Virus record (IMG/VR): IMGVR_UViG_3300028173_000007 | Location: 25,588 to 89,587 of that record | Source of the DNA: a virus | Reading direction: 5' to 3' (one strand) | DNA length: 64,000 nucleotides | In this document: positions 2 through 47,966 of the stretch, one piece after another | Position numbering within the stretch: the first letter of the stretch is position 1 | Layout of the letters: every line of letters begins with the position of its first letter | Made by a program: the position numbers and the translations under genes | Notes under the pieces: generated by a model | The model's input: only the letters and a program-made list of their open reading frames with translations | The model's database searches: none | Told to the model about the DNA's origin: nothing

Positions 2-3000
2 TCCACGGTCCCGATCAAGAAGCTCGACGAAGACGAGCGGGACCTTGCGCTCGACGTGATCGGCCGGCTGCGCCGCGAGATCGGGAAGCTCAAGAGCGGG
101 CTCGAAGCCGGCGCGAAGGAAGAACAGCGGTTCGGCGGGCACTCGGTGTTCCGCACTCACCACGGGATGCACTCGTTCACGGCGCCCACCGGGGCCGACA
201 AGGGCAAGATCGCGGAGGCCTGGATCACGTCGCACCTTGAGCGCGTCGGGCACGAGGCCATGAAGGAGGCCGCCGACAAGCACTATGGCGGCGAGAACGA
301 AGACGCCCCCCACGAGCACGGCATCCCCGAGAACGTACTTCGCGCCGTCCGCGCCACGCTGCGCCCCGAGGTGGTGAGCGCCTGGAGCATGGGCGGTATC
401 AAGCTCATGGACGACGGCCAGGCGCAGAAGAAGGCCGCAGCGGCGGCCAGCGCCACCGGGAAGCAGGCCGTGGCCGACAAGGCCAAGCGCGCCGAGGCGA
501 AGAAGGCCCGCGCGGCCGAGAAGAAGGCCGCCCGCGCCGAGAAGGCGCGCGCCGAGGCGAAGCCCGAGGACGACCCGAAGCGGGGCCCCGACGGCGAGCT
601 CACCGAGAAGGAGAAGGAACAGCGCCGCGAGAACGCGCGGCGCCGCAAGGGGACCGGGAAGCCCGACGAGCCGAAGAAGGGCCGCGCCCCGGCCTTCGAC
701 AATGAGACCTGGGCGAAGAAGTACGGGAAGCACGCGGAGAACGTCGAGGTCGTCGGCGGGCACATGACCGTATGGCAGATGGGCCAGAGCGGGAGCATGG
801 GCACCCGCGGAAACTGGTACGTCACCGCGCCCAACGGGAAGAACGTCGGCCGGGCGGCCAGCGCGGAGAAGGCGCGGGAGGTGGCCGAGCAGAAGGCCGC
901 TCAGCACAAGCCGCTCGGCGCTGGCGAGGTGCTGGACGAGATCCGCAAGCGCGGGGGCCACGGCATCGCGGACGGGATGCACGCGGACGCGAAGGAACGC
1001 ACCGAGGGCCACTACACCGCCACGACGCACACCGGGAAGAAGATCCCCAAGGGCGGCCCAGGCGAGCACACCGAGGGCTGGAGCTCCGCGGAGCACTCCA
1101 GCGCGGCGGCCTGGCACAAGAAGCAGGAGGACGCCAAGCGAGCGGACCCGCGTTCAAGCCTCGAAGACGCGAACCACCACGGCCGCATGGCCGAAGCGCA
1201 CCTCGGGGCCTACACGGCGATCCACGAGGGGCGGACGAAGGCGCGGAAGGCGAAGGACTTGGCCGCGCTCAAGGCCGACCCGAAGGCGAGGTTCCACGAC
1301 GCCCTTGCGTCGACCGGGTACGGCCCCGGCGGCCGGGGCTATGAGGCCGTGCGGGACTACATCGGCCTCGCCAACAGCCCCGAGGAAGCGGGCACCCTGG
1401 CGGCCGCCCTCGACTACTCGGGAGAGGCGGGCGCGCGTAGCTTCGAGGCCCTGGCGGCCCGAGCTCTCAAGGTGTCCCCGGCCGAGCTCGTGACGCGCAA
1501 GCGCGCCCACGCAGCGGCCGGCGCGGCCGCCGGCGGCGCCAAGGGCGACGAGCCGAAGCGGGTCGGCGGGGAGCTCACCGAGAAGGAGAAGGAGCAGCGG
1601 CGGGAGAACGCGCGCCGGCGGCGCAAGTTCACCCCCATCGACCCGAAGAAGGCCGCAGTCCCCGAGCACCTCCGCGCGGGGACTGCGGCGCAGGTGGGCG
1701 AGAACATCGCGGCGAACGCCAAGCTCGCCAGCACCGACGACGAGCGACAGAACGTCCGCGATCACGTCTCGCGGCTACTCGCCGCGGGGACGATCACGTC
1801 CGAAGCCGGGGAGCGGGCGTACCTGGCCGCTGGGCTGACGAAGGACGGCGGATTCAAGGCGGCCGAGCCCGCCCCCAAGGCCGAGCCCGCCCCCAAGGGG
1901 CGGGAGGCCCGCCAGGCCGAACACAAGCGCCGAGGCGGCGAGGCGGCGACCGCTCACCAGGCGGTCGCCGACCACCAGAGCGCGTGGATCAAAGAGCAGG
2001 GCGGGTCCGCCAAGTTGCGCGAGCGCGGCATCCGGCGCATGGACCAGATCCCGGTGCCGGACGAGCTCAAGATGAAGCGCCAGAAGGCGCGGGATGCCGT
2101 TGCGGCGCACCACCACGAGAACGGCGGCGCGGGCGGCTTCACGGCCGCGGCGATCAACGACGCGACCGCCTTTATCAAGCGCAGCGAGGCCAGCGGCGGC
2201 AACTTCGAGGTGCTCAAGTGGGCCCGCGCGGTGTTGTCGCAGATCAAGGCGGCCGGCCCCAACGCCGTGCGCGACACCCCCCCGCACCCCGGCAAGGGGA
2301 GCGCCACCGCGACCGCAGAGAAGTTCCTCGCCCGGCTGCGCGACCAGAACAGCCATTGGGGCGGAGACGACCGCAACGACGTGGGCGATGCCATCGTGAA
2401 GGAGGGCCGAAACAAGCGGACGGGGGCCGCGGAGCACGTCGTCAACTTCACGACCCGCCGCGGCCGCGAGGACCACCAGCGGCTCGGGGCCATCGCGACC
2501 GGCTTCGGCGGCCAGATGGTGCGGCGCAAGGGCTTCGTGTTCGCCACGCCTGAGAAGGCGCGCGCCTTCGCGGAGGCGCACGCCATCCACCACGGCACGG
2601 GCTCGCCCTACAGCGCCAGCAAGGCGGCCCAGGAGCCCGAGGGCGGCAAGCGGGGGCCCGGCGGTGAGCTCACCCCCGACGAGCTCGCCCAGCGCCGGGA
2701 GAACGCCGCGAAGCGCAAGGGGACGGGAAAGCCCGACGACGCGCCCAAGGCGAAGCCGAAGAAGGCCGACGAGCCCAAGGCGAAGCACCACCACGACGGT
2801 TGGCCCGAGGACCAGTACCAGCGCGCGCAGGCCTTCCGGCGCGCGCTCTATGAGGGCCCGATCAAGCTCGGGAACGGCGGCCAGGTGGAGACCACCGACA
2901 CGGGAGTCAAGGTCACGCACCCCGACGGGCGTGAACACGAGATGCGCGTCCCCAGGATCGACCGCGACAACACGGCGATTGAGGCCGCGGAGAACGGCGG

Positions 3001-5554
3001 GCCCGTGATCGCGGCGCCCCTGGGCAGGATGGAGGGCTACACCGCGAAGGCCGACGGCCTCCCGGTGGGGGGCCGCGCTCACATCGCGTACAACAAGGGC
3101 CAGGACGCCCTCGCCAAGCTCCACGCGCACGCCAGCGCACGGGCCCGCGGTGAGAAGGTGGACGCCGGCGAGCTCCACGACGCGGCCGAGGCCGTCACGC
3201 GACACGCCCAGGCCGTCGAGGCGGCCCACACCCGCCGCGGGAAGCCGCGGGACGCGGCCCTGCGGAAGCGCGGAAGTCTGATCGCGCAGCGAGACGCCGT
3301 GCTCTCCAGCGCCCAGGATGCCGTCGCGTTCCACGGCCAAGGCAAGCCCGACCCCGAGGCCTTCCACGCCTGGGCCAAGGACAAGAGCCCCGAGAAGCTC
3401 GTAGACCTGGCCGCGAAGGTCACCGGGGAGGGCGGGCACCCCGCCGCAACTGAGCTCGCCTTCGGCAAGGTGCCGGCGCACGACATCGTGCGCGCCGCGA
3501 TGGACAGCATCGGCAAGACCGGCTCTCGTGCCCGAAGCATCCCCGCCACCATGCGGCGCGCGGTCCATGCCCTCGGCCACCTGGCGGGGGAGCACCGCGG
3601 ACACGAGAGCATGGCCCTCGGCGCGGCCTGGACCGACCTTCCCGACGCGGTGTTGGAGGGGATCAAGACCCGAGGCCGCACCGCAGACGGCAAAGACTGG
3701 CACCCCAACGGCCAGCGGAAGCGCGCCGCGGAGAACGCCGTCGGTGAGCTCCGCGCCCGCGACAACGCCGCCCAGCGGCTCGGCGTGCCCCGTGTCGAGG
3801 TTCAGCCGAAGGTGGGGGTCAACGGCACCGAGCTCAGTCACTTGGCGGCGGGCATGAGCGACCTTCGCAAGCGGGCCAGCGCCGGCGACAAGCACGCGGA
3901 GGGCGAGATCAAGATGCGCGGCATGGCCGCCGATCTCCTGGGCCACGGGAAGCACGTCCTCGACTCCCTGCACGACCACGGCGGCGTGCATGAGGTGTTC
4001 GGCGGCGACCACGAACACATCAAAGCGCCGGACGGGAGCACCTACCGCCGGAACACGGGCCACGCCGGCGAGACGACGTGGAAGAAGGTCGGCGCGGACG
4101 GCACGACCGGCGAGTCGTGGAACCGCGGGGCGAGCCGCGCGGCTCTCGAAAAGCAGCACGGCACCGACGGGTGGGGCGACGCCAACGAGACGAAAGAGCA
4201 GGCCCACGGCCGGCTACTGGCCGACCTGAGCACGCAAGCCGGGCAGACGAGGCGGACGCCTGGGCGAAAGGAGCTCAGCGGGTACGACAAGACGGGGATC
4301 GCGATCCGCCAGCACCTCGAAGGCTCGAAGCTCATCGAGCACGACGAGCACGGCCCCGTGTCGCTCGGCCAGGTGGCCGAGGTCATGGACCGGCACCAGA
4401 ACGTCGCGGAGGCCGGCTCGAAGCGCGACAACATCCCCTCGCCCAACTGGCCGGCGAAGCTCTCCGACGAGCGCCTGGGCGAGATCGTGAAGCACCGCAA
4501 CGAGCCCGGTCTACACGACCGCTTCCACCGGGAGCAGACCGCGCGCGCCGATCACGAGCTCCACCAGGGCGACCACGGCGATCACGAGGCGGCGAAGTCC
4601 GGTAACGGCTGGACGGTCAAGAAGGGCGGAAAGCACACCGGGATCAAGGCCGACACGAAGGGCGAAGCCCTGCACGCGGCCGGGATGCTCCACCGAGGGG
4701 ACTCGGGCGAGGACGTAGAGCACGCCCTCGCCACGGGCACGGCGAAGCGCGCGGTGGGCGTCTACAAGGAACGCCGGCGCCAGGCCGCCGCGGGGGCCGA
4801 CGCGGCCAGCCTGCACGCCATGACGCAGGCGACGGCGCCCGCCGCCGGTGAGTTCAACGTCGAGGCGAAGCCGCACACGACCCGAGCGAAGGCGGCCGCC
4901 CGCATGGCGAAGTTCGCCAGCACCGAGGATGATCGCGTCAACTTGCAGAGCTACCATGTGAAGGATGGGCACGCCACCGCGACGGACGGGCACCGCCTGG
5001 CCAGTATCCCCGTGAAGGGTGACCACGAGGACGGGGCGACCTACCGAGCTCACGGCGACGCGGTGCCGAAGCACATCGAGGGCGACGCCGAGAAGGTGGC
5101 CGCGTGGCACAAGGGCTGGGGCCGAGGCTCGCAGAGCGACGTGAACTTCCCCGACTACACGCAGGTCACGCCCAAGGGGCACCCCCACGTCGATCACGTC
5201 GATGCGAAGCACCTCACGACCGCACTTCGGATGCTCAAGCCGCACATGGACGGGAAGGTCCCCCACATGCGCCTTGAACGGAAGGACGGGAAGCTCTACG
5301 CCACCGCCGACGTGGGCCACGCGGTAGACGGCGGCGTGGCACGCATCCACCTGGGCGACACCTCGCACCCTGACGGGCAGGTGGGCATCAATCACAAGTA
5401 CCTCTCCGACGCGACGCAGGGCGCAAAGGGCACGGTCCAGATCAAGACCGGGAGCATGAAGCCCCGAGCCGACGACAGCGACCACGGCCTCGCGCCGATG
5501 GCCGTACACCGCGAGGACGGCGAGAAGCACATCATCATGCCGCTGCGCGTGTGA
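2..5554 (+). CDS. Giant multidomain head-module protein with C-terminal beta-clamp-like domain (5' partial)
   Basis: The frame is open through the left edge, so the true start is outside; the first in-window start codon is a GTG at 56. The first residues (TVPIKKLDEDER) recall the beginning of XkdF-like phage proteins. About 1,830 residues rich in Ala, Lys, Glu and His follow. Counting from the GTG, three near-identical linkers with core GELTEKEKEQRRENA lie at about residues 172, 499 and 862 and appear to separate modules. From about residue 1600 the protein resembles bacterial DNA polymerase III beta clamp: ATDGHRLA at about 1642, FPDYTQVTPK at about 1698, and a terminal IIMPLRV like the VVMPMRL end of DnaN. 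About 230 residues match, enough for roughly two of the three clamp domains. Position ahead of the prohead protease suggests a virion or head-assembly protein. The clamp resemblance is my own reading of motifs; the rest has no recognised function. Confidence 0.75.
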   Translation, partial: STVPIKKLDEDERDLALDVIGRLRREIGKLKSGLEAGAKEEQRFGGHSVFRTHHGMHSFTAPTGADKGKIAEAWITSHLERVGHEAMKEAADKHYGGENEDAPHEHGIPENVLRAVRATLRPEVVSAWSMGGIKLMDDGQAQKKAAAAASATGKQAVADKAKRAEAKKARAAEKKAARAEKARAEAKPEDDPKRGPDGELTEKEKEQRRENARRRKGTGKPDEPKKGRAPAFDNETWAKKYGKHAENVEVVGGHMTVWQMGQSGSMGTRGNWYVTAPNGKNVGRAASAEKAREVAEQKAAQHKPLGAGEVLDEIRKRGGHGIADGMHADAKERTEGHYTATTHTGKKIPKGGPGEHTEGWSSAEHSSAAAWHKKQEDAKRADPRSSLEDANHHGRMAEAHLGAYTAIHEGRTKARKAKDLAALKADPKARFHDALASTGYGPGGRGYEAVRDYIGLANSPEEAGTLAAALDYSGEAGARSFEALAARALKVSPAELVTRKRAHAAAGAAAGGAKGDEPKRVGGELTEKEKEQRRENARRRRKFTPIDPKKAAVPEHLRAGTAAQVGENIAANAKLASTDDERQNVRDHVSRLLAAGTITSEAGERAYLAAGLTKDGGFKAAEPAPKAEPAPKGREARQAEHKRRGGEAATAHQAVADHQSAWIKEQGGSAKLRERGIRRMDQIPVPDELKMKRQKARDAVAAHHHENGGAGGFTAAAINDATAFIKRSEASGGNFEVLKWARAVLSQIKAAGPNAVRDTPPHPGKGSATATAEKFLARLRDQNSHWGGDDRNDVGDAIVKEGRNKRTGAAEHVVNFTTRRGREDHQRLGAIATGFGGQMVRRKGFVFATPEKARAFAEAHAIHHGTGSPYSASKAAQEPEGGKRGPGGELTPDELAQRRENAAKRKGTGKPDDAPKAKPKKADEPKAKHHHDGWPEDQYQRAQAFRRALYEGPIKLGNGGQVETTDTGVKVTHPDGREHEMRVPRIDRDNTAIEAAENGGPVIAAPLGRMEGYTAKADGLPVGGRAHIAYNKGQDALAKLHAHASARARGEKVDAGELHDAAEAVTRHAQAVEAAHTRRGKPRDAALRKRGSLIAQRDAVLSSAQDAVAFHGQGKPDPEAFHAWAKDKSPEKLVDLAAKVTGEGGHPAATELAFGKVPAHDIVRAAMDSIGKTGSRARSIPATMRRAVHALGHLAGEHRGHESMALGAAWTDLPDAVLEGIKTRGRTADGKDWHPNGQRKRAAENAVGELRARDNAAQRLGVPRVEVQPKVGVNGTELSHLAAGMSDLRKRASAGDKHAEGEIKMRGMAADLLGHGKHVLDSLHDHGGVHEVFGGDHEHIKAPDGSTYRRNTGHAGETTWKKVGADGTTGESWNRGASRAALEKQHGTDGWGDANETKEQAHGRLLADLSTQAGQTRRTPGRKELSGYDKTGIAIRQHLEGSKLIEHDEHGPVSLGQVAEVMDRHQNVAEAGSKRDNIPSPNWPAKLSDERLGEIVKHRNEPGLHDRFHREQTARADHELHQGDHGDHEAAKSGNGWTVKKGGKHTGIKADTKGEALHAAGMLHRGDSGEDVEHALATGTAKRAVGVYKERRRQAAAGADAASLHAMTQATAPAAGEFNVEAKPHTTRAKAAARMAKFASTEDDRVNLQSYHVKDGHATATDGHRLASIPVKGDHEDGATYRAHGDAVPKHIEGDAEKVAAWHKGWGRGSQSDVNFPDYTQVTPKGHPHVDHVDAKHLTTALRMLKPHMDGKVPHMRLERKDGKLYATADVGHAVDGGVARIHLGDTSHPDGQVGINHKYLSDATQGAKGTVQIKTGSMKPRADDSDHGLAPMAVHREDGEKHIIMPLRV

Positions 5555-5826
5555 CGGTGGACGAACCGCGTTCAATCCGGTGCGGCTCGTGTGGCCACAC
5601 CATCGGGGCTCACCAGGGCGGCCGGCTCAAGTTGCGCGTGCGTGTCCTGGCGTTCGGGCCGGACGGCGCCGCGAAGGCCCCGTGCCCGCGCTGTAAGCGC
5701 GACACGCCGGTTCCGGTGGAGCTCGCCCCCGAGTACCGGCCGGCAGCCCTCAACCGCCAGTCTCGGGCCGCAGCCGCGCGAGCTCGGGCCGCGGCCAGGT
5801 TGACGCACGCGCCCGAGACGCCTTAG
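5551..5826 (+). CDS. Com-like zinc-ribbon protein
   Basis: A 91-residue protein starting at a GTG that overlaps the stop of the giant upstream gene (GTGA). It has a CxxC pair near the N-terminus (IRCGSCG) and a second at CPRCKRDTPV. This arrangement is close to phage Mu Com, a small zinc protein that activates translation of the mom DNA-modification gene by binding its mRNA. A roughly 20-residue insertion separates the two cysteine pairs, and the C-terminus is Ala/Arg-rich, suiting nucleic-acid binding. No mom-like gene was recognised in the window, so the target is unknown. It is translationally coupled to the upstream gene and followed by a terminator. Confidence 0.6.
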   Translation: MTVDEPRSIRCGSCGHTIGAHQGGRLKLRVRVLAFGPDGAAKAPCPRCKRDTPVPVELAPEYRPAALNRQSRAAAARARAAARLTHAPETP

Positions 5827-5867
5827 CCTCTCGGGCAGACGCGATAGCGACACTCATTAGCGGCCTA

Positions 5868-5938: not shown

Positions 5939-6790
5939 GTGACCATGCCAGCCCCCAGCCCCACAACCCGCCTTCACGGGTGGATGCCGTGGGAGGCCTT
6001 TTTCAAGGCCGACGCGCCCAAGGGCAAGCGGCTACGCATTCGCGGCATCGTGAGCACCGAGCACCGAGACCTACAAGGCGAGGTGGTCGTGCAGGCCGGC
6101 CTCGACTGCTCCCCGATCTCGCAAGGCCGCGGGTGGTTCAACGACAATCACCGCCGCGAGACGGGCCAGGAGCTCGGCATCCCGACGAAGGTGTGGCGAA
6201 CGAAGGTCAAGGGCGTACCGGCGACGGCCGTCGAGGGCTACCTGCTCGACACGCCCGAGGGCCGGCGCGTGTGGACGAACGCGCGCGCTCTCGCGGGGAC
6301 CGGCCGCAACTACGGTTTCAGCGTCGAGGGCGCGATCCTCGAACGGGACGTGACCGACCAGAAACGGATCGTCCGCTCGGTTGCCCGGCAGATCGCGATC
6401 ACCCGTTGCCCGGTCAACCCGAACACCGAACTTGAACCAATCGCCAAGAGCCTCACGGCGCACATGGAGAAGGCCGTCCGCTTGGGCGCCGCCTTCCCTG
6501 GCGCCAGCGGCCAGCCTGGCCAGATGGGCGCGCTGGTGCCGCAGGACCTCGGCCGTCGGGCCGACGGCCACGACGACGAAGTGCAGTTCTTCGGGGGCCT
6601 GGCCTTCGATTGGGCCGCGTTCGCGCGGTCTCACAGCGCATCGGACGCCCTCAGAAACGGGCGCCGTCGCACACGTCCCCGCCTGGAGAAATCCCAGGCA
6701 GTCGCCTATGTCCGCGCGCGGCTCCCCGGTGCCACCGACGCGCAGATCAGAACCATCCTCGCCGGCGCGTCCGGCGCAACTGGAGCGTGA
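5939..6790 (+). CDS. Prohead serine protease
   Basis: A 283-residue protein resembling caudoviral prohead proteases, which cut scaffold and capsid N-termini during head maturation. Typical features are RGIVSTEHRDLQGE near residue 40, a histidine-containing segment (FNDNHRRETG) and NYGFSVEG near residue 124 carrying the probable catalytic serine; VNPNTELEPIAK matches the usual end of the catalytic domain. The GTG at 5939 is preferred because GGAGAG lies six bases upstream; an ATG follows two codons later. The C-terminal third is Arg-rich and less conserved. It follows a terminator and precedes the scaffold candidate and the capsid gene, the usual order for this enzyme. Confidence 0.8.
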   Translation: MTMPAPSPTTRLHGWMPWEAFFKADAPKGKRLRIRGIVSTEHRDLQGEVVVQAGLDCSPISQGRGWFNDNHRRETGQELGIPTKVWRTKVKGVPATAVEGYLLDTPEGRRVWTNARALAGTGRNYGFSVEGAILERDVTDQKRIVRSVARQIAITRCPVNPNTELEPIAKSLTAHMEKAVRLGAAFPGASGQPGQMGALVPQDLGRRADGHDDEVQFFGGLAFDWAAFARSHSASDALRNGRRRTRPRLEKSQAVAYVRARLPGATDAQIRTILAGASGATGA

Positions 6791-7665: not shown

Positions 7666-9171
7666 GTGGAAATTGCGGACATTTTCGGCGGACAGGCCGA
7701 GGTCACCGGCGCCGGCGTCGCGGCGGCGCTCGGGAAGGGCTCGGTGGGCGAGCTCCTCAAGTCGATGAGCGTCGGGGCGACGTTCCCGGCCCAGATCGGG
7801 GACCTCAACCCCGGTCAACTGATGGCGACGGTCCCCCAGGACCTCGACGACGTGCTCCACAACATGAGCTTCGACCCGCGGAAGCACACCTTCCTGTTCC
7901 GCGAGACCCACCACGACAAGGTGTGGAGCACGGTTCACCAGTACGTCCGCAAGCAGTCGCAGGGCTCGCTCGGCCGTCGGTTCATGTTCCACCAGGAGGG
8001 CGGCCTGCCGCCCGAGTCGGACAGCACCTACACGCTGGAGCAGGTCGCGATGAAGTTCGCCGGCTCCGTCCGGCGGCTCCCGATCCAGGCGCGGCTCGTG
8101 AAGTCCATCGCGGGTAACACCGTGAAGGCCCAGAACAAGGACGGGGCCGAAGAAATCCTCGCCGGCATCGAGTGGGCGATGCTCTACGGCAACCCGACCG
8201 TGAACCCGATGACCTTCGAGGGGATCAAGCAGTCGATGATCCGCGAGGGGATCAGCCTCGACGCCGGCGGCATCGCGCCCACCGAGGCGCTCATCGATGA
8301 GGGCATGGAGCGGATCACCGAGCGGCCCAACTGGGGCTACCCGACCGACATCCTGTGCAGCCCCCGGATGCACAAGACGATCCGGCAGGTCTACGCGCCC
8401 CGAATGCGCTCCATGCTCGGCAAGGCCTTTCACCCCAACTACAGCTTGAAGGGCATGACCTTCGATCACTGTGCCGAGGGTGACGAGGTGCGGATTCGGA
8501 AGCACCCGCTCGCCATCGAAGAAGCCCCCGTGTGCGACGAGCTCGGGGCCGGCCCCGACCCGAGCAAGCGCCCCGTGCTCCCCATCGTGATCAGCCAGCC
8601 CACGCCGGCCAACGACGCGGACAGCCTGTACGGCAACGGCCAGGCGGCGCGCGCCGGCGGCGTGGTCAAGTACCGCGCCGTGGCCATCAACGAGTACGGG
8701 ATGAGCGTCCCCCTGACCCTCAACGACGCCAACATCGGCGCCGGCCAGTCCGCGCCCTTCACGATCAAGGATGGCGCCGTCCCCGGCGCGCTGAACCGGG
8801 CGACCGGCTTCATCATCTACCGCACCGAGCCGGGCCTGCTCGCGCCCACCGCCACGCAGATCGACGAGATCAGCGCGGCCAGCGGCGCGAACGTGACCTA
8901 CACCGACCGCGCCGAGAACCTGCCGGGGTGCTCCGACCTGTTCCTCCTGAGCAACAACCGCGAGGCCTTGTGCTGGAAGCAGTTGCTCCCCTTCTTCAAC
9001 TTCCCGCTGGGGAACCTCGACACGTCCTACCGCTGGGCGCTGCTCCTGTTCGGGGCCCTCAAGATCGCGTTGCCCCGGCACCACGCCGTGATCCGCAACG
9101 TGAAGCCCGACCTCGCGCTGCGCCAGGTCTTCGGGCCCGGCGATCAGAGCTCGGCCCAGGCCAACCTGTAG
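7666..9171 (+). CDS. Major capsid protein
   Basis: A 501-residue protein in the capsid position, with the family-typical stretch AEEILAGIEWAMLYGNP around residue 165 followed by a FEGIKQSM segment. Start is GTG 7666 with GGAGAAA a few bases upstream. Around residues 305-420 there is an inserted beta-rich domain (VVKYRAVAINEYGMSVP, then FIIYRTEPG) that looks like a fibronectin/Ig-like fold and would probably decorate the capsid surface. The C-terminal part (TSYRWALLLFGALKIALPRHH) returns to the capsid core. A strong hairpin follows the stop. Confidence 0.8.
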   Translation: MEIADIFGGQAEVTGAGVAAALGKGSVGELLKSMSVGATFPAQIGDLNPGQLMATVPQDLDDVLHNMSFDPRKHTFLFRETHHDKVWSTVHQYVRKQSQGSLGRRFMFHQEGGLPPESDSTYTLEQVAMKFAGSVRRLPIQARLVKSIAGNTVKAQNKDGAEEILAGIEWAMLYGNPTVNPMTFEGIKQSMIREGISLDAGGIAPTEALIDEGMERITERPNWGYPTDILCSPRMHKTIRQVYAPRMRSMLGKAFHPNYSLKGMTFDHCAEGDEVRIRKHPLAIEEAPVCDELGAGPDPSKRPVLPIVISQPTPANDADSLYGNGQAARAGGVVKYRAVAINEYGMSVPLTLNDANIGAGQSAPFTIKDGAVPGALNRATGFIIYRTEPGLLAPTATQIDEISAASGANVTYTDRAENLPGCSDLFLLSNNREALCWKQLLPFFNFPLGNLDTSYRWALLLFGALKIALPRHHAVIRNVKPDLALRQVFGPGDQSSAQANL

Positions 9172-11371: not shown

Positions 11372-14164
11372 ATGTCTTTCGGGACCCCCGTTTCCTTGCG
11401 CCGGTGGGATACCACCGCCAACAAGATCGCCCGGCTCAACGCCAACGACACGGACGCGAACAACGTCCTCGCCATGAACCAGATCCGCGCGGGCGAGTTT
11501 CACCTCGCGTCGGGCGGCGGCGGGTCCCCGATCTACGACGGGGCGACTGGCGCCGTGGCTGTGGCCACGCTGCGCGACAGCGGCGCGCACAACTTCGGCC
11601 TGAGCGGCGCCGCGATCACCTTCGATGGTGACGTGGTGGTGTCGGGCGATCTCATGCTCACCGGGCAGACCTTGACGGTCAACGGCGAGGTGAGCCTCAC
11701 CGACTCGCACGTCTACATGAACGCGGGCTACCAGACGGCCGCGGGCCGCGCCGGCGGCCTGGCCGTGAACTACTTGCCCACCGCCACGGTGGACACGGCG
11801 AACGGCGCGGTTGCGGCCACCACCCTCGCCACGACCGGGACGGGGATCTTTGCCGCGGGCGATTTCGTGCAGATCGCGAGCTCGGACAACGGGATCGACG
11901 GCGTGTACGAGGTCGTGAGCCACACGGCAAACGTCCTGACGATCAACGGCACCCCGACCCACCAGTTCTGCGCCACGGCGATGGCCGTCGGCACCGAGGA
12001 CACCGGAACGAAGCTGACGAAGGTCACCGTTTCGGTGCTCCAGGCGGGCACCGATGGCCTGTGGGAGATGGGCAAGGGCGCCACCGCGTCGGACTTGACC
12101 TCCGACCTGGAGGACCTCGGCGCCGCCGCCCTGACCGGCATCCTCGAAGACCTCGACACCCTGGGGGCGGCGGCCTCCGACGGGCAGTTCATCGTCGCCA
12201 CGGGCGCGGGCGCCTTCGCCTACGAGTCCGGCGCCACCGTCCGCACCTCGCTCGGGCTGGCCATCGGCTCGGACGTGCAGGCCTATGACGCCGAGCTCGC
12301 CGCGCTGGCGGGCCTGACCTCGGCGGCCGACGGCCTGCCCTACTTCACCGGCAGCGGGACGGCCGCCCTGGCCACCATGACCGCGGCGGGCCGGGCCATC
12401 CTCGACGACGCCGACGCGAGCGCCCAGCGCACGACCCTGGGCCTGGCCATCGGCTCGGACGTGCAGGCCTACGACGCGGAGCTCGCCGCGCTGGCGGGCC
12501 TGACCTCGGCGGCCGACTCCCTGCCCTACTTCACCGGCAGCGGGACGGCCGCCCTGGCCACCATGACCGCGGCGGGTCGGGCCATCCTCGACGACGCCAA
12601 CGCGAGCGCCCAGCGCACCACGCTCGGCCTGGCCATCGGCTCGGACGTGCAGGCCTACGACGCGGACCTGGCCGCCATCGCCGCGCTGGCCAACACCGAC
12701 GGGAACTTCATGGTCGGCAACGGCTCGGCCTGGGTGGCCGAGTCCGGCGCCACGGCGCGCACCAGCCTCGGGCTGGGCACCGGCGACTCGCCCACCTTCG
12801 CCAACGCGACCCTGACGACGGACCTCACCGTCGCCACGATCACGGGCCAGGCGTCCTCGGTGGTGATCGGCGCGGCCTCCGACATGGTGAGCATCGGCTC
12901 CTACGGCGGCGGGAACACCCTCACCATGTACGGGTCCACCGTGTCGATCTCGGGCGACGACGGCGCCGTCGACACCATCGGCGCCGGGCTGAACTTCACG
13001 GGCGGCATGGGCGGCGCCTACAGCGCGACGAGCGCGGCGGGCGGCGGCGGCTTCAACTTCAACACCGGGTCGGGTGGGGCCGGCGGCGGGTCCGGCCTCG
13101 ACGGCGCCGCCGGCGGCGATGTCTACTTCACCTTGGGGGGCGGCGGGTCGAACATCGGCTTCACCGGCGGCAAGGGCGGCAGCTTCAACGTGTCCGGCGG
13201 TCAAGGCGGCGATGCGGAGAATGGTGGCGACGTGACCTTCGACGCCGGCATGGCCGGGTCGGGCGGGTCCGACGGCGCGATCAGCATCGGCGCCAGCTAC
13301 GCACTCACCCTGGCGCTGGCGAACAGCGCCACCACGACGAGCGCCTACGGCCTGTGGGACTTCGCCAACACGGGCGGGTCCACCGGGAACGCCGACTTCG
13401 ACGTGGCCGGCTACGCGCAGTTCGCGGGGGCGGTCGAATTCGACTCCACCGTGCAACTGGACGGGGCGGCCACCTTCAACGCGGACGCGACCTTCGCCGA
13501 CGCCGTGAAGGTCCAGTTCGGGACCGGGACCGATGCCGACATCGCCTGGGTGGACGGGTCGAGTCTGCTCGACTTCAACGTCACCGGCTCGCTGGAGATC
13601 GACACCTCGGCCGCCATCGCCATCGAGAGCTCGGGCGGGGCGATCAGCATCGGGGCCGACGCGGTGGCCCAGGCGATCAACATCGGCACCGCCGGCGCGC
13701 GCACGGTCAAGCTCGGCAACACCGCGGCCACCGTCGAGATCGACGGGCCGGTCGTCCAGCAGATCGACGAGGGCTGGGGCGTCAAGACCGGCGCGGGCGG
13801 GCTGGACGTGGCCACCAACACGGTCGGCACCGGCGCGGTGGTCTACTTCTCGGGCAACGACACGCTCAGCGGGGCCACCGCGGCCAGCAGCGGGGGTGCC
13901 GAGGATACCTTCGGCGTGTACGATGGCACGACGATTGTGGACCGTGGTCCGGTGACCATCGCGAAGAAGACGGGGGCGGCGTGGACGGCGGGCGACAAGG
14001 TGTACCTCGACCCCACCAACAGCGAGGCGACCACCACGGCCCCCAGCGGGTCGAGCGAGTGGGTGCGCAGCCTCGGCCGCGTCATGACCTCGGCGGCCAG
14101 CGGGGACGCCACCGGCCGCGTGTGGCTGACCCTCTCGGAAGACCCGATGCAGAACCCGGCGTAA
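11372..14164 (+). CDS. Large Gly/Ala-rich fibre protein
   Basis: A 930-residue structural protein starting at ATG 11372 behind a GAGAGG ribosome site. It is beta-rich and low in cysteine. Residues about 290-430 contain a tandem repeat of 62 residues (LGLAIGSDVQAYDAELAAL...) typical of phage fibre shafts. A Gly-rich tract follows (about residues 540-640: GGMGGAYSATSAAGGGGF and similar), then a repeated-strand C-terminal half. Phage fibre proteins of this type trimerise. Its location between head and connector genes, far from the tail-fibre genes at 30-36 kb, suggests a capsid or neck fibre rather than a receptor-binding tail fibre; that is inference. Confidence 0.65.
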   Translation: MSFGTPVSLRRWDTTANKIARLNANDTDANNVLAMNQIRAGEFHLASGGGGSPIYDGATGAVAVATLRDSGAHNFGLSGAAITFDGDVVVSGDLMLTGQTLTVNGEVSLTDSHVYMNAGYQTAAGRAGGLAVNYLPTATVDTANGAVAATTLATTGTGIFAAGDFVQIASSDNGIDGVYEVVSHTANVLTINGTPTHQFCATAMAVGTEDTGTKLTKVTVSVLQAGTDGLWEMGKGATASDLTSDLEDLGAAALTGILEDLDTLGAAASDGQFIVATGAGAFAYESGATVRTSLGLAIGSDVQAYDAELAALAGLTSAADGLPYFTGSGTAALATMTAAGRAILDDADASAQRTTLGLAIGSDVQAYDAELAALAGLTSAADSLPYFTGSGTAALATMTAAGRAILDDANASAQRTTLGLAIGSDVQAYDADLAAIAALANTDGNFMVGNGSAWVAESGATARTSLGLGTGDSPTFANATLTTDLTVATITGQASSVVIGAASDMVSIGSYGGGNTLTMYGSTVSISGDDGAVDTIGAGLNFTGGMGGAYSATSAAGGGGFNFNTGSGGAGGGSGLDGAAGGDVYFTLGGGGSNIGFTGGKGGSFNVSGGQGGDAENGGDVTFDAGMAGSGGSDGAISIGASYALTLALANSATTTSAYGLWDFANTGGSTGNADFDVAGYAQFAGAVEFDSTVQLDGAATFNADATFADAVKVQFGTGTDADIAWVDGSSLLDFNVTGSLEIDTSAAIAIESSGGAISIGADAVAQAINIGTAGARTVKLGNTAATVEIDGPVVQQIDEGWGVKTGAGGLDVATNTVGTGAVVYFSGNDTLSGATAASSGGAEDTFGVYDGTTIVDRGPVTIAKKTGAAWTAGDKVYLDPTNSEATTTAPSGSSEWVRSLGRVMTSAASGDATGRVWLTLSEDPMQNPA
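12251..12674 (+). repeat. 186-bp tandem repeat inside the fibre gene
   Basis: Two full copies of a 186-bp unit (12251-12436 and 12437-12622) and a partial third copy from 12623. The copies are nearly identical at the nucleotide level, including silent positions, which indicates recent duplication or ongoing homogenisation. Each unit encodes 62 residues of fibre shaft, so unequal recombination would change fibre length in frame. Confidence 0.85.
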
Positions 14165-17004: not shown

Positions 17005-17971
17005 GAAGGACCTCGGCGTCGAGCTCGACGCGCTGCTAGACCTTGAGGGGTGGGGGCGGACCTCGGTGGAGCTCCGCTTGCGCCGCATCCTGCGAATGGC
17101 GCGCGCGCACGCGGTCGAGCTCGCCGGGACCCGCCTCGAAGGGCCGCGCCAACAGTGGGTCGACGCCCTGGGCGAGCCGACCTTCGAGGCCCTCTCCCCC
17201 ACCATCATGCGCGCGTCGCTGGTGCTGGGTGAGGGCGGCGCCGCGGGCAACGTCAAGGCCTTCGCCCACATGCTCGAAGAAGGCGCCCCCGCGTGGGATC
17301 TGCGCCTGACCATGTTCCCCGGCCGCCCCGAGAAGCAGCACCAGATCAAGCGGGACGCCGAGGGGTTTCGCTACCGTTCGATCCCGTTCAAGCACTCAAT
17401 GGGCGGCGCGAAGCCCGCGGGGCACCAGTTCACCCGAACCGGCCAGCGCCCCAACAGCCTCGCCCACCGCGGAGCTCTCGACTTGGCCGGGGCCCAGGTC
17501 GTGAACCGCGCGGTGTCCGATGGGATGGCGCGGATCAAGGGCCGCGACGCCCGCCGCGCGGCGGGCCAACTTCCGCCGCACACGCGCGGCAACACGCGCA
17601 CCGCGCCGGGCCTCCCGACGAAGTGGGGCGAGCGCCTCGACGCCGGCCTGGCGCCCATCCTGCGGCAACGGCACGTCACCGACATTTTCTCGGGCATGGT
17701 CCGCACCTCGAAGGACTACGAGAAGAAGCAGGACGAGGGCGGCCACATGACGTTTCGGACGATCTCGGAGAATCCGGGGACGCACCGCTACGACACCGAC
17801 GGACGCGGAGGCCCAGGAGGAAAGCGCAACGTCATGGGGAACACCTCAGAGCGCAACTGGACGCACCCCGGCTTCCCTGGCGTGTTCATCCTGCGCGATA
17901 CGCAGTCCTACGCCTTGAGCATCGCCGGCGAGCACTTCGGCCCGCTCGACTCGGGGGCCCCCGGTGCGTGA
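16997..17971 (+). CDS. Putative neck or minor tail protein
   Basis: A 324-residue protein. GTG 16997 overlaps the preceding stop and is preferred over an in-frame start 129 bases upstream that lies inside the previous gene. The first 100 residues are helical; the centre is basic and Arg-rich (RIKGRDARRAAGQLPPHTRG); the end is beta-rich. Order resembles gene 10-type neck proteins of other phages, but no diagnostic motif was seen. Confidence 0.5.
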   Translation: MREKDLGVELDALLDLEGWGRTSVELRLRRILRMARAHAVELAGTRLEGPRQQWVDALGEPTFEALSPTIMRASLVLGEGGAAGNVKAFAHMLEEGAPAWDLRLTMFPGRPEKQHQIKRDAEGFRYRSIPFKHSMGGAKPAGHQFTRTGQRPNSLAHRGALDLAGAQVVNRAVSDGMARIKGRDARRAAGQLPPHTRGNTRTAPGLPTKWGERLDAGLAPILRQRHVTDIFSGMVRTSKDYEKKQDEGGHMTFRTISENPGTHRYDTDGRGGPGGKRNVMGNTSERNWTHPGFPGVFILRDTQSYALSIAGEHFGPLDSGAPGA

Positions 17972-18656: not shown

Positions 18657-21151
18657 GTGCGAGCTCGGTGCAGACGACGAAGGGCTCAACCCACGTCCCC
18701 GGCGTCTATAACGAAACGAAGGTCGTCGGCATCCCCCTCGCGACGCCTGGCGCAAAGGTGCTCGTGCTCATCGGTGAGGCCGAGGGCGCGGAACCGGGCA
18801 AGATCCACACCCTCACGCGGCCGGGCGCGGCCCGCGCGCTCTTTCGCTCGGGTGACCTGCTCGACGCGGCCCTCATGGCCTTTGACCCGAGCCGCTCGGC
18901 GAAGATCACCGGCCGCCCGGCGCAGGTGTTCGCGTACAAGACGAACCCCGCCACGCAGTCGGCCGTCACCCTCGGGAACGGGGACGGTGACGCCCTCGTG
19001 CTCACCAGCCGCGATTATGGCCTGTTCACGTCGCGCATCGGCGTTGACCTGACCTTGGGGACGAACCAGGGCTTCAAGGTGGACGTGGAGCTCGACGGGA
19101 AGACCGAGAGCGCCGACGACCTCGGCGGCGTCGCGGCCTTCACCGCCGACTACGCCACCACCGGCGACGCCGCCACCATGCAAATGGTCGTGAGCGACAC
19201 CGAGATCCGCGCGGACTACACGGTGGCCCGTGCCGGCCTGGCGATCACCGACCCGGCCGCGGCCGGACTCGTCGAGGTCCTGAGCTCAAGTGCCTACGAC
19301 GCGCACCAGCGCGTCACCGTCTATGGGCTGGACGCCGGCGGCGATCCGGTCTTCGAGGTCTTCGCGCTCAACGGCGTGACGGCCGTTGTCGGGTCGCAGA
19401 CCTTCGGCCAGGTCACCGGCTGGCGCGTGGATGGCGCCACCGCTGGCGTGATCACGGTGCAGGAGGACGGCGCGGGCGGCGTGCTGGACACCACCGCGGC
19501 CACGCTCAGCGTGGCGGCCACCGGCAAGGTGGAGGTGGTGAGCACCGACGCCGACGACACCGGCCGGATCATCGTCGAGGGCCTCTCCGCGGCCGGGAAC
19601 CCCATCGCGGAGACGCTCACCCTGGCCGGCCTGGGCGTGGTGGCCGGCGCGCTCGTCTTCGACAAGGTGACGCGCGCGCGCCTCGTGGGCGTGGCCGAGG
19701 GCAACGTCTCGGTGCGGCAGAACAGCGACAACGCGGTCGCCTTCACCATCGCCGCGGGCAGTCTCACCGCGGGCGTGGACATCAACGAGGGGCTGTACCT
19801 CCCCGACGCGATGGCCTTCGACTCGGTGATCAGCACCATCCTTGACGCGGCCAGCGTGGGCGCCGTCCTCGTGGTGCGCGGGCTGAACCGGGCCGGCGCC
19901 GCGGTGGCCGAGAAGGTGGCCCTGCTCGACTCGGCCGTGCTCACCACCGCCGACGTGGTGCAGGTGACGCAGATCGAGCTCGGCGCCCTTCCGGTGGCCC
20001 GCACGGTGACCCTCTCGGGAACCGCGGCGAGCTCGAAGGTGGCCGAGCGGCCGCTACTGCGCGACGCCGTGGCCTACTTCAACGCCCTTCCCGGCTTCGC
20101 CGCGGCGACGGCCTCCCCGGCGGCCTTCAAGGTGGTGGACCTCGACAGCGCCAGCCAGTCGATCCGAAGCGCGACCCCCGTCGACTTCGGCGCCGATCTC
20201 GTCGCCCTCGTGGGGTGGTTCAACGCTTCGAGTCGACTCGTCTCGGCCGCGGCCAGCGCCGGCGCCACCGGGGCGCCCTCAGTCCTCGCACAGCGCGCCT
20301 ACCTCGTGGGCGGGGCCGAGGGCACCACGGCGATGGATCATTGGCGCGCGGCCCTCCTGGCCGCGAAGAAGGCCACCCTCGACGCGGCCTTCAAGGCCTC
20401 CCGCCAGGTGATCGTTCCCCTGAGCGACTCCGATGCGGTCCACAACCTGATCAACGGCGAGCTCCGCGCCCGCGACGGCGTGCATGAGGCCGCCGCGTTC
20501 CTCGGGCTCGCCACCACGAAAGACAAGGCCGCGATCAAGACCGCGATCCGCGCCGGGAACAACCGGCAGATCGCGTTCAGTGCGCAACAGGTGGTGGCCT
20601 TCGACGACAGCGGCGCCGAACGCACCATGCCGGCGTGGTCCTGGCCCGTGCTCCTGGGCGCGCTCATGTGCGGCAGCCGCACGGCCGAGCCGCTCACCGA
20701 GGCCGAGGGCAACACGATCCGCACGGTGAACCATGCGTCGTGGGATGCGGTCGACGACATCGAGGAAATGATCGCGGCCGGGCTGATCGTCGTGCATGGG
20801 CGCCAGGTGGTGCGCTCGGTGTCCTCGTGGCTGGAGGACGACAATCGGTACTACACCGAGGTCTCCACGAATGAGAGCCTCGACGACTCGGCCTTCAACA
20901 TGCGGCGCGCGCTGCGCCCGCTGGTGGGGGCGCCGGACTTCGACGGGAGCGCCTCGACGCTCCGCTCCGCGGCCTTGGCCGAGCTCGAACGGCAGGTGAC
21001 CCGCGGCGAGATCAAGACCTTCAACCCCGAGGGCGTGGTCGTGACGGACATCGGGGACGGCTTCGACGTGGACTATGAGATCGAGCCCGTCGAGCCGATC
21101 AACTTCATCCGGCCGACCGCCTACGCTCAGCCGCTCTCTGTCCGCATCTAG
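18653..21151 (+). CDS. Tail sheath protein with inserted beta-repeat domains
   Basis: An 832-residue contractile sheath protein, ATG 18653. The start (STHVPGVYNETKVV) and the last 150 residues (RTVNHASWDAVDDIEEMIAAG ... EIEPVEPINFIRPTAY) are characteristic of sheath N- and C-terminal strands, which interlock neighbouring subunits. Between about residues 205 and 465 there is an insertion made of three related beta modules (starts near residues 207, 293 and 391) with the shared pattern GL-AAGNPI-ET-L. The insertion explains the length, which is well above typical sheaths of roughly 400-660 residues. The tube gene follows nine bases after the stop. Confidence 0.9.
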   Translation: MSASSVQTTKGSTHVPGVYNETKVVGIPLATPGAKVLVLIGEAEGAEPGKIHTLTRPGAARALFRSGDLLDAALMAFDPSRSAKITGRPAQVFAYKTNPATQSAVTLGNGDGDALVLTSRDYGLFTSRIGVDLTLGTNQGFKVDVELDGKTESADDLGGVAAFTADYATTGDAATMQMVVSDTEIRADYTVARAGLAITDPAAAGLVEVLSSSAYDAHQRVTVYGLDAGGDPVFEVFALNGVTAVVGSQTFGQVTGWRVDGATAGVITVQEDGAGGVLDTTAATLSVAATGKVEVVSTDADDTGRIIVEGLSAAGNPIAETLTLAGLGVVAGALVFDKVTRARLVGVAEGNVSVRQNSDNAVAFTIAAGSLTAGVDINEGLYLPDAMAFDSVISTILDAASVGAVLVVRGLNRAGAAVAEKVALLDSAVLTTADVVQVTQIELGALPVARTVTLSGTAASSKVAERPLLRDAVAYFNALPGFAAATASPAAFKVVDLDSASQSIRSATPVDFGADLVALVGWFNASSRLVSAAASAGATGAPSVLAQRAYLVGGAEGTTAMDHWRAALLAAKKATLDAAFKASRQVIVPLSDSDAVHNLINGELRARDGVHEAAAFLGLATTKDKAAIKTAIRAGNNRQIAFSAQQVVAFDDSGAERTMPAWSWPVLLGALMCGSRTAEPLTEAEGNTIRTVNHASWDAVDDIEEMIAAGLIVVHGRQVVRSVSSWLEDDNRYYTEVSTNESLDDSAFNMRRALRPLVGAPDFDGSASTLRSAALAELERQVTRGEIKTFNPEGVVVTDIGDGFDVDYEIEPVEPINFIRPTAYAQPLSVRI

Positions 21152-25904: not shown

Positions 25905-27022
25905 AGCCACCGTTCCGCTATCAGGAGGCCACGCCGCGCCGGGTGCGCGGGCGTCCCCCGCGCCAGGTGAAGCAGACCTTCCCCACGCGGGGGGTCGTCA
26001 TGGCGGTTCACTTTGCAGACGAGACCGAGGGCGGCGAACTCCCGTCCGCGGCCTACCACCACCCCGCCCAGGTGACGTGCGACGTGTTGACGTGGTGGGG
26101 CGGCGCTATCTACGACGTGCCGGTCATGCAACGCGGATCCTCGGTGGGTGACGCGGAGCTCTGGACGCCGCGGCCGGCGACGCGGACCCTCGACGGATCC
26201 CCGCTCGTGTGGGAGCAGACCCCCGAGGACGCCCCGGCCGACCCCGAGAACACCGACGGGGAGTGGGTCGTCGTCGCGTTCTTCGACGGGGACCCCTCGG
26301 CGCCCTACATCGAGGGGAGCATCCCCCACCCCAGGACGCGGCGCGCGCACGGTGGCGCCCAGGCCCGCGAGGCCTTCGACCCCACGGCCGACGGCTCTAT
26401 GCCGATCACACCCCACGGGCATGAGCGGTACACCGCTCACGCGGGGTCTGTGCTGCGCGTGGACGCTTCGGGGAACGTCCGCTTGGACACGCGCCAGGCC
26501 GGGGAGGACCAGACCGGAGAGGGCGCCCCGAGCGGCGGTCATGTTGACGTGGATCTCCGCTCGGGCGCCTGGGTCACCCTTCGATACGACGGCGGGCGCC
26601 AGGTGCGCTTGCGGCTCGACGGCGACGGCACCCCGCAACTGGATATCTTCGCAGGGGATCGGCCGCTGGCGCGGCTCTCGGACTACATCGAGATCAACGC
26701 CACCACGTCGCCCCTCTGGGCCGCATTCATCGCGGCGGTGGTCGCCGCACACCAGACGGTCATTCCGCCGCTACAGGCCGCAGCGAACGCCCAGGGAACC
26801 ACGGTGGACGCCCTCGCAGCCTGGGCGGCAACGCCGGCCCCGCCCAACAACGGCCGGCCCCCGTTCGTCGCGCCTGACGTGGGCGAGGTGCTCCCTGTGC
26901 CGCCGCCGGCGGCGGGCCCGTTCCCGGCGCCATACGATCAAACGCCCGGCGGCGCCCCGCCGGCGGGCTTCCAGGCGGTCGGCCAGGTGGTCACCGCGAG
27001 CTCGCAGATCCGGGGGACCTGA
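25901..27022 (+). CDS. Baseplate spike / OB-fold puncturing protein
   Basis: A 373-residue protein, GTG 25901 overlapping the hub stop. The central part (GEWVVVAFFDGDPSAPYIEGSI) matches the OB-fold domain of phage spike proteins (gpV/Mu gp45-like), where a beta barrel binds the hub. It is followed by a repetitive beta segment (SVLRVDASGNVRLDTR, VTLRYDGGRQVRLRLDGDG) that would form the spike helix. The C-terminus is Pro/Ala-rich. It would pierce the outer membrane. Confidence 0.65.
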   Translation: MKPPFRYQEATPRRVRGRPPRQVKQTFPTRGVVMAVHFADETEGGELPSAAYHHPAQVTCDVLTWWGGAIYDVPVMQRGSSVGDAELWTPRPATRTLDGSPLVWEQTPEDAPADPENTDGEWVVVAFFDGDPSAPYIEGSIPHPRTRRAHGGAQAREAFDPTADGSMPITPHGHERYTAHAGSVLRVDASGNVRLDTRQAGEDQTGEGAPSGGHVDVDLRSGAWVTLRYDGGRQVRLRLDGDGTPQLDIFAGDRPLARLSDYIEINATTSPLWAAFIAAVVAAHQTVIPPLQAAANAQGTTVDALAAWAATPAPPNNGRPPFVAPDVGEVLPVPPPAAGPFPAPYDQTPGGAPPAGFQAVGQVVTASSQIRGT

Positions 27023-28795: not shown

Positions 28796-28798
28796 TCC

Positions 28799-30202: not shown

Positions 30203-30211
30203 GGGGCGCAG

Positions 30212-46052: not shown

Positions 46053-46948
46053 CCGAGAGGTGGCGACCGGGGGCCATCTTCCCCCTTCTGAGAATCCAGA
46101 CCTGGGCGGACGGCCAGCCGGTGAAGGCCGTTCACCGCGGCATCCTCGCGACCCTGTTCGAGCGGTCGGCGCCGGCCGATGGGAAGTGCAGAGACGGGAT
46201 CGTGCGGAACCGCAAGCTCGCCGCGTTCGGCCTCGGGCCCGACGTGGGCGCCTGGGCGGGTCGGCCCGAGGACCTGGGCGCGGCCCGGTCCTCGGTGCGG
46301 GAGACCCTGCGGCGGGCGCTGGCGCTCGGCGTGCTGGTGCGCCACGACCGGGCGGGGAAGCCCCCGATCTTCGTGTGGCAGGACGACCGGATCCGCGAGT
46401 TCGCCGCGCCACGACCCCAAAAGTCGTCTGCTCCTGCACTCCCTCTATCCTCTGCACCCGAGGGGGGGGGCTCGAAGGAGACCCGGTGCGAAAACGAACC
46501 CGGTACGAAAGCGGCCCCGGTCCAAAAAGAGACCCCCCCGTCTCTATATGATCCGCGCGCGCGTCTGGCCTTAGAACAACAACTACACACCCCCCTTACC
46601 CCCCAGGGGGGGGGACTGGCGGATCTGGATAGCTTGTGGGCCAGCGGGCACACGAGAGCTCGCCGCACCCGAGGGGTGCAGGGCTTCAACGGCGCCGAGA
46701 TTTCACGGGTGGCCGCTGCGCTCCAGAAGCACGGCTTCGAGCCGGTCAAGGCCGCACTCGAAGCCGAGATCCTCGCCGCGGCCGGGTCGGCGCCGCGCAT
46801 GGACATCGCGCTCAACACGTTGGACGGCCAACCGTCCCCGCCTCGCAGACCAGCGGGCCGGGGGCCAAGGCCTCAGAGGGGCGGGGGCAACCCCGCGAAT
46901 CCGGTTGCGCTGGACCGGGCCAAATGGCGAACGCCGGCAGGAGGATAG
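46049..46948 (+). CDS. Replication initiator-like protein (lambda O-type arrangement)
   Basis: A 299-residue protein; GTG 46049 overlaps the preceding stop. The N-terminal 115 residues look like a winged-helix DNA-binding region (ILATLFERSAPADGKCRDGIVRNRKLAAFG; SSVRETLRRALALGVLVRHDRAGKPP). The centre (about 125-190) is low-complexity and lies over the iteron-like repeats; the C-terminal part (RGVQGFNGAEISRVAAALQKHG) is helical and may contact the downstream DnaC-like loader. Initiator followed by loader, with repeats inside the initiator gene, is the lambdoid O-P plan. Function is inferred from this context. Confidence 0.55.
   Translation: MTERWRPGAIFPLLRIQTWADGQPVKAVHRGILATLFERSAPADGKCRDGIVRNRKLAAFGLGPDVGAWAGRPEDLGAARSSVRETLRRALALGVLVRHDRAGKPPIFVWQDDRIREFAAPRPQKSSAPALPLSSAPEGGGSKETRCENEPGTKAAPVQKETPPSLYDPRARLALEQQLHTPLTPQGGGLADLDSLWASGHTRARRTRGVQGFNGAEISRVAAALQKHGFEPVKAALEAEILAAAGSAPRMDIALNTLDGQPSPPRRPAGRGPRPQRGGGNPANPVALDRAKWRTPAGG
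46468..46535. other. Putative replication origin: four 17-bp iteron-like repeats
   Basis: Four adjacent 17-bp units: GGGCTCGAAGGAGACCC, GGTGCGAAAACGAACCC, GGTACGAAAGCGGCCCC, GGTCCAAAAAGAGACCC. All start GG, have a central AA and end CCC; units 2 and 3 are the clearest. Because 17 is not a multiple of three, the repeats cannot reflect repeated protein sequence. They are followed by the relatively A+T-rich TCTCTATATGAT (46541-46552) and TTAGAACAACAACTACACAC (46571-46590). Confidence 0.6.
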
Positions 46949-46952
46949 AGGA

Positions 46953-47966
46953 ATGACCGACGAACCGAAGACCATCGAGGCCGAGCCCTCGCCCGAGCCC
47001 TCGCCCGAGCCCTCGCCCGAGCCCTCGCCCGAGCCCAGCGGGCGCGGCAACCTGGGCGCGGCCGTGGACGCCCTCGCGGCGTCCTGGCGGCTGGAGTCGC
47101 CGACTCGGCCCGAGCCCCCGAAGCCGGACGGGCCCCCGACGCTCATCCTCGCGCAGACCCCCGAGGGCCTCCGCGCGGAGGTGACGCCCTGCACCTGCAC
47201 CGACGGGTATCAGATCACCGACGCGGGCGCGGTGCCGTGCTCGGCCTGCTCGACGCCGAAGCGGGCGGCTGCGCTGATCAACCGCTGCGGCCTCCCGGCC
47301 GAGCCTGGGGCGTGCTACTTCGCCGGCTACCGCTACCTCAACGAGCCCGCGCCCGGCGAGCCCGACGGGGAGGAACGGGGGGGCGTGGTCTACGTCAAGG
47401 GCGGGGCCTACCTGCACCCCGCCCAGGAGCGCCGCGCCGCCCTCGCGGCCATGCGCTCACTCTCCGACCGCGTGGCGAAGCTGCGCCACGTTGGGGAGCT
47501 CCGCGGCCTGAGCTCGGTCCTACTCGCGGGCCCGCCCGGCGTGGGGAAGTCCTACCTCGGCGCGGCGTTCGCCCTCGAAACCATCCTCGCCGGCGCGCGC
47601 CTGGCCGTCCGCTACTGCCACATGGGCGGGCTCCTGGCCGAGTGCCGGCAGAGCATCCAAGCGCAGAAGCGAACGCAGGCCCTCGTGGATGCCGTGGCCA
47701 CCGTGCCGGTCCTCGTGTTCGACGAGCTCGGCGCGGGCCGCGCGACGGATTGGGAGCGCAGCATCGCGGACGAGATCATCGCGCGGCGCTACGACGCCGG
47801 CCTCCTGACCGTCTCCGCGACGAACTACACGACCGGGGCGGACCCCGAGCCCGAGGACCTGGGCGCCCTGCGGAACCGGATCGGCCCGCCGGCGGCGTCT
47901 CGCCTGTGGCACCGCTCGGTGACCTACACGCTCAGCGGCGTGGACCTCCGCGGGGTGGTCTCGTGA
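46953..47966 (+). CDS. DnaC-like helicase loader (AAA+ ATPase)
   Basis: A 337-residue protein, ATG 46953. The N-terminus has four 12-bp repeats (46986-47033) giving PSPE repeats, a flexible linker. A cysteine cluster at about residues 73-90 (CTCTDGYQI ... CSACSTPK) suggests a zinc-binding N-terminal domain as in DnaC. The ATPase core has Walker A GPPGVGKS near 193, Walker B VLVFDELG near 253, a sensor-like TVSATNYTTG and arginine-rich end. It would load the host replicative helicase at the origin next door. Confidence 0.8.
   Translation: MTDEPKTIEAEPSPEPSPEPSPEPSPEPSGRGNLGAAVDALAASWRLESPTRPEPPKPDGPPTLILAQTPEGLRAEVTPCTCTDGYQITDAGAVPCSACSTPKRAAALINRCGLPAEPGACYFAGYRYLNEPAPGEPDGEERGGVVYVKGGAYLHPAQERRAALAAMRSLSDRVAKLRHVGELRGLSSVLLAGPPGVGKSYLGAAFALETILAGARLAVRYCHMGGLLAECRQSIQAQKRTQALVDAVATVPVLVFDELGAGRATDWERSIADEIIARRYDAGLLTVSATNYTTGADPEPEDLGALRNRIGPPAASRLWHRSVTYTLSGVDLRGVVS

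Follow-up and report, generated by a model that had tools for sequence, protein, structure and literature searches.

The last 234 residues of a giant protein encoded in the head-gene block of a soil phage are descended from the bacterial sliding clamp DnaN. Our best reading, which we regard as an even call, is that they are delivered with the virion and serve as a docking module for host clamp clients or as a decoy.

Identification of the clamp domain

The window analyzed comprises 64,000 nucleotides and covers positions 25588-89587 of the viral record IMGVR_UViG_3300028173_000007, whose length is 89,587 bases. The gene of the giant protein runs from record position 24797 to 31141 as a single open frame of 2,114 aa and starts 791 bases upstream of the first base of the window; the length of 1,832 aa given for this ORF in a preliminary description of the window was wrong, as the start lies before it. 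Identical copies of the protein are present in two other samples. Its features are as follows (window coordinates).

2..5554, + strand: giant protein gene, in-window part (residues 265-2114 of 2,114; one open frame)
578..661, + strand: linker repeat, copy 1, KRGPDGELTEKEKEQRRENARRRKGTGK (residues 457-484, direct reading)
near 1556: linker repeat, additional copy, KRVGGELTEKEKEQRRENARRRR
2648..2731, + strand: linker repeat, KRGPGGELTPDELAQRRENAAKRKGTGK (residues 1147-1174)
4850..5551, + strand: DnaN-derived C-terminal domain (residues 1881-2114; PHROG_947, viral DnaN profile, AlphaFold2 model, Foldseek)
4850..5146, + strand: shortened clamp domain 2, with ATDGHRLA at 4979-5002 (alignments to viral and Escherichia coli DnaN)
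5147..5551, + strand: FPDY connector and complete clamp domain 3 (GINHKYL at 5384-5404, IIMPLRV at 5531-5551)

The landmarks by which a clamp had been recognized (ATDGHRLA, FPDYTQVTPK, GINHKYL, and IIMPLRV) all lie in one and the same frame, with FPDYTQVTPK at 5147-5176 and the stop codon at 5552-5554. The last 222 residues match PHROG_947, "DNA polymerase processivity factor" (E=6.8e-13, model positions 136-365 of 368). The match to TIGR00663 (dnaN; E=6.6e-8) reaches 31.9 bits, below the curated cut-off of 137.65, and that of the clamp domain to Pfam DNA_pol3_beta_3 reaches 11.3 bits, below the cut-off of 27. We drew viral DnaNs from IMG/VR with an alignment of the domain and the DnaNs of E. 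coli and a Rhizobium phage, and a profile of 64 of them, from which the window sequence was left out, gave 75 bits for the best domain (81 for the whole sequence) versus at most 1.5 bits for 200 shuffled sequences. The AlphaFold2 model of the domain, built with viral DnaN relatives, had a pLDDT of 81.5 and a pTM of 0.78, with pLDDT values of about 50-65 around the shortened part of domain 2, just before FPDY. When this model was compared with the PDB by Foldseek, the best 50 matches were bacterial sliding clamps (E from 2e-12 to 3e-11, probability 1.00, TM(query) 0.60-0.66). The structure prediction and the DnaN profile, the two checks proposed beforehand, thus found the clamp topology and a DnaN match, and profiles, model, and Foldseek together confirm the suggestion that a clamp fold is fused to a protein of the head-gene block.

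Searches with single sequences had little reach. Neither the clamp domain nor the whole giant protein gave any tblastn match among 50,697 phage records, and single-protein scans of viral and GTDB contigs returned identical copies or nothing, so alignments were required as queries. In a plasmid search, the sole match was a dnaN whose annotation reads DNA polymerase III subunit beta.

Recurrence of the fusion in other viral lineages

A search with the N-terminal module of the giant protein (described below) led to 29 loci in viruses and another two in genome assemblies, which we scanned with the DnaN profile and then with a compact-clamp profile. Counting the window virus, six distinct viral lineages carry a clamp domain at the C terminus of a protein that shares this module; the fused relatives, referred to by their loci, are L099 (1,504 aa), L103 (1,009 aa), L105 (1,318 aa), L108 (779 aa), and L127 (990 aa). 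Domain 1 of the clamp is absent in all fused members. All relatives are contigs from metagenomes or assemblies. In a profile-profile comparison with DnaN, four of the other fused domains, with the window excluded, gave a probability of 98% and E=1.7e-13. The six fused domains form one group in a maximum-likelihood tree, with moderate support and a very long branch for L127.

These relatives bear on whether the fusion is real. A Met codon at window position 4820, just ahead of the domain, would allow the clamp to be translated separately from an internal start, but a ribosome-binding sequence was looked for before this ATG and none was seen. That the fusion is an artefact of assembly or a frameshift is already contradicted by the relatives, with the same architecture in five further lineages, and by the same open frame in separate samples. 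We regard this whole class of explanations, separate translation included, as extremely improbable.

One pair of viruses differs in the clamp itself. L102 is 99.9% identical to L103 over about 8 kb save for 1,483 bp that are missing from L102 (L102:8111-9658 versus L103:4325-7351); the clamp protein has lost its C-terminal half there, and the deletion ends just short of the next gene, which is intact. Provided that neither of the two contigs is misassembled, this natural loss in a near-identical virus suggests that some populations at least can do without the clamp domain.

Loss of ring-forming parts and retention of the binding pocket

DnaN consists of three domains, and two subunits make up a six-domain ring. 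The window domain does not have this three-domain organization: domain 1 is missing, the match to the DnaN profile beginning at model position 119 of 365, and domain 2, ahead of FPDY, lacks a stretch of about 20 residues that forms a pair of strands in intact DnaN. A domain 1 hidden further upstream was considered and rejected, as the profile starts at that position and residues 230-280 give a mere 0.5 bits. Domain 3 is complete, and the junction of domains 2 and 3, with the pocket for clamp-binding motifs (CBMs), is still present. The likeness to DnaN that the landmarks had indicated therefore holds for domain 3 and the junction but not for domain 1, and for domain 2 only in shortened form.

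We took the 18 CBM-pocket residues of E. coli from a published list (PMC11139829). The window domain retains this pocket, with 14 of the 18 residues identical (R152, L155, T172, G174, H175, R176, L177, P242, V247, N320, Y323, M362, P363, and R365), two changed conservatively (V360I and M364L), and two different (R246Q and V344K); R246 is invariant among intact viral DnaNs. The dimer interface of DnaN is not retained, since the window domain has I272P, L273H, and E304I, and Y153, Y154, R269, and R279 are likewise altered.

Because the pocket columns are highly conserved from the outset, the contrast between pocket and other conserved positions was recomputed for three conservation cut-offs, each time once with gapped positions and once without them. 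Among positions conserved to at least 0.85 in viral DnaNs, the window domain keeps 14 of 16 in the pocket and 8 of 17 elsewhere (p=0.017); raising the cut-off to 0.9 weakens the contrast, with p=0.075 when the window protein is taken by itself. Three relatives show a stronger contrast, namely, L103 (16/16 versus 6/17), L099 (14/16 versus 6/17), and L108 (12/16 versus 3/17). It is absent in L105, where the pocket is degenerate (6/16 versus 4/17), and L127 has poor motifs, so binding cannot be the role of the domain in every member.

The degenerate pockets of L105 and L127 would agree with a domain that is inert as a clamp, an old capture that now caps the end of the giant protein for structure, folding, or packaging and whose pocket likeness is a relic. 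The natural loss of the domain in L102 and its terminal position in every fused protein point the same way. What such a history does not account for is that four of the five aligned members have retained pocket positions in preference to equally conserved ones elsewhere, which drift would not yield, and we consider this explanation possible but rather doubtful.

The missing parts weigh directly on the idea of a working processivity clamp for early replication, in which several copies, or copies together with host DnaN, would encircle the injected DNA. Descent from DnaN and the clamp fold are clear, several standalone phage clamps are short too, and no separate phage clamp was found in the record, an absence that is weak because the 89.6-kb record may be incomplete. 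Against these points stand the absence of domain 1, the shortening of domain 2, the I272P and L273H changes, and the loss of other inner-face or interface residues, and the tether to a chain of 1,880 residues would hinder loading. We judge such a clamp very improbable. Replacement of the host clamp, one of the roles suggested initially, is disfavored for the same reason, as the ring-forming parts (domain 1, part of domain 2, and the dimer residues of domain 3) are missing.

A subtler use of the ring geometry would be as a poison subunit, with domain 3 pairing with domain 1 of the host clamp and blocking or opening the host ring. Domain 3 is complete and, from what is known of the family, provides the side of the DnaN dimer interface that meets domain 1 (PMC11139829); yet the hydrophobic interface residues I272 and L273 have become P and H, and E304 has become I, which makes this pairing improbable in our view.

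Relationship to other phage clamps

The window domain shares with DnaN (TIGR00663; PF00712/PF02767/PF02768; PHROG_947) its descent, domain 3, and the domain 2/3 junction, and it also keeps the CBM-pocket residues and the C-terminal MP[LM]R motif. It differs in being the C-terminal part of a 2,114-aa protein and in scoring below the Pfam and NCBIfam cut-offs. Among the reference phage clamps compared, the DnaN of Rhizobium phage RR1-A (AGN34417.1) had the best BLASTP pairwise score (E=2e-8). Unlike the window domain, standalone phage DnaNs have three domains, are nearly all of 300-490 aa, and are encoded alone, and nearly all phage DnaNs that we retrieved by similarity were of this kind. We also observed a 1,033-aa viral protein with a complete N-terminal three-domain DnaN followed by a C-terminal extension of about 650 residues (L079:7551-10652).

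The short phage clamps of PHROG_3007 (e.g., Bas81_0046 and VPRG_00008) resemble the window domain in lacking domain 1 and keeping the pocket motifs of domains 2 and 3. Their truncation is the opposite one, with the whole of domain 2 and about half of domain 3, and they are standalone proteins of 178-192 aa. In the tree these short standalone clamps are separate from the fused group and branch with E. coli DnaN, so the window domain does not belong to PHROG_3007. PHROG_3007 proteins are annotated either "DNA polymerase III beta subunit" or "RusA-like Holliday junction resolvase." Those with the second label (L009:1483-2019 and L013:1483-2019), often found beside a ParB-like gene, are truncated DnaN clamps, and this label looks wrong.

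The N-terminal module and the head-gene neighborhood

The preliminary description had treated everything upstream of the clamp as low-complexity sequence. This is true of the linker around residues 421-480, the clearest low-entropy stretch, but not of the N-terminal start, where residues 34-185 or so (about 150 aa) form a folded module (model pLDDT 92) with the motif order KGAGHKYxRR, WRYxY, GAKF, GHFEV, and RHDESG. The module is found in six proteins of the window virus, which are a DUF6884/Mom-like protein, proteins of 303, 1,850, and 932 aa, a C5-methylase protein, and the clamp protein. The copies are located as follows (record coordinates; L003 and L004).

1010-1465: module copy
4827-5156: module copy
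5417-5857: module copy
12504-12968: module copy
17034-17366: module copy
24797 onward: module copy

The 1,850-aa sister protein also contains a match to the linker repeat KRGPGGELTPDELAQRRENAAKRKGTGK. The window protein, L108, and L103 (P-A-A-G-E-F) have a similar linker of the A-P-x-x-G-x-F type ahead of the clamp domain, and nothing ties it to cleavage.

No Pfam or PHROGs family covers the module in the six proteins. Searches of the PDB by sequence and by fold gave nothing significant for it, the best fold matches being SH3/Tudor-type barrels, and a search of BFVD yielded a single significant match, to an uncultured-phage protein labeled "DdrB-like domain-containing protein." We regard the module as a candidate tag for virion packaging or delivery. 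Several carriers merit separate mention. One is a 1,126-aa module protein with DUF6884 and a match to Mom-like DNA modification proteins (L003:959-4339), and two single giant phage proteins bear the module twice (L098:8941-14940 and L115:9080-16687). Another, a 1,726-aa module protein devoid of a clamp domain (L100:7566-12743), is encoded near terL and portal matches on a Myxococcales MAG chromosome; this locus is probably a prophage and gives a hint at hosts.

The genes adjoining the clamp protein in the window are as follows.

5551..5826, + strand: small Zn-ribbon-like protein (weak Pfam Zn-ribbon matches; adjoins the clamp protein in L103 and L105)
5939..6790, + strand: head maturation (prohead) protease (PHROG_1028, E=9e-28)
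7666..9171, + strand: major capsid protein (PHROG_752, E=2e-49)

The order in the window virus is portal, MuF-like protein, the giant protein from module to clamp, Zn-ribbon protein, prohead protease, and major capsid protein, and L103 has the identical order. The visible part of L105 reads portal, MuF, clamp protein, and Zn-ribbon protein, and L127 has portal, MuF, clamp protein, and protease. The clamp protein thus follows MuF in the head-gene block of the window virus and three relatives; in L108 it lies between the major capsid protein and the tail sheath, away from MuF. Just upstream of the portal gene of the window virus is the following gene.

L004:6724-7725 (record 19724-20725): InPase-domain protein, 333 aa (PF18823, E=5e-33)

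InPase is a domain of the phage polyvalent proteins, whose published setting also includes methylases and MuF and portal neighborhoods and which are said to be likely packaged and injected (PMC5512222). Like them, the window protein is large and multidomain, with InPase and methylase neighbors and with portal, MuF, and protease genes nearby: module and clamp are joined in one 2,114-aa frame among the virion genes of a portal-terminase phage, between MuF and the protease. The clamp domain itself is not mentioned for polyvalent proteins in that founding study.

Proposed role

From the module and the gene position, we infer that the giant protein is delivered with the virion, by packaging and injection, an idea that fits the head-gene order, the shared module, and the polyvalent-type neighbor domains. 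Under the docking or decoy reading, the giant protein is of the polyvalent type, ends in a clamp reduced to its peptide-binding part, is probably packaged in the virion, and would enter the cell together with the phage DNA. The clamp domain would not encircle DNA. Judging from its conservation, the pocket would bind host proteins with CBMs, and the proteins held could include Pol III alpha, the clamp-loader delta subunit, MutL, translesion polymerases, and RecB. The last is a plausible client because the RecB of E. coli uses QVEMEF to bind the clamp pocket (PMC13254535). The outcome would be either recruitment of host replication factors (Pol III and the loader) to the incoming genome or a decoy that keeps repair and nuclease factors off it, and we are undecided between the two. 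Sequestration, as originally suggested, is plausible in a modified form, with the clients of the host clamp rather than the clamp itself as targets, since the surface retained is the one in which clamp-binding peptides are gripped.

Sliding clamps are known as rings. We put forward, tentatively and as something that may well prove wrong, that ring-less, pocket-only clamps have arisen at least twice independently in tailed phages, and that one kind is carried in the virion on a polyvalent protein, is injected, and captures host clients (polymerase, clamp loader, mismatch repair, and RecB) at the incoming genome ahead of all phage gene expression. If true, this would be a new phage route into the replication and repair network of the host just as the DNA enters, would extend the polyvalent-protein repertoire by a replication-factor domain, and would give a functional reading to the short phage clamps labeled RusA-like resolvases.

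Clients of the clamp domain would be those of the host, since searches of the record for polymerases of families A, B, and C were negative (again a weak absence, as the record may be incomplete), and the virus may use the host polymerase. None of the 18 phage proteins scanned carries a CBM pattern, in a search that is weak for such short motifs. Two further loci of the window, the first of them a replication function, are as follows.

46905..47966, + strand: DnaC-like helicase loader (PHROG_50, E=3e-22)
40035-43860, - strand: adjoining SbcC-like and SbcD-like genes
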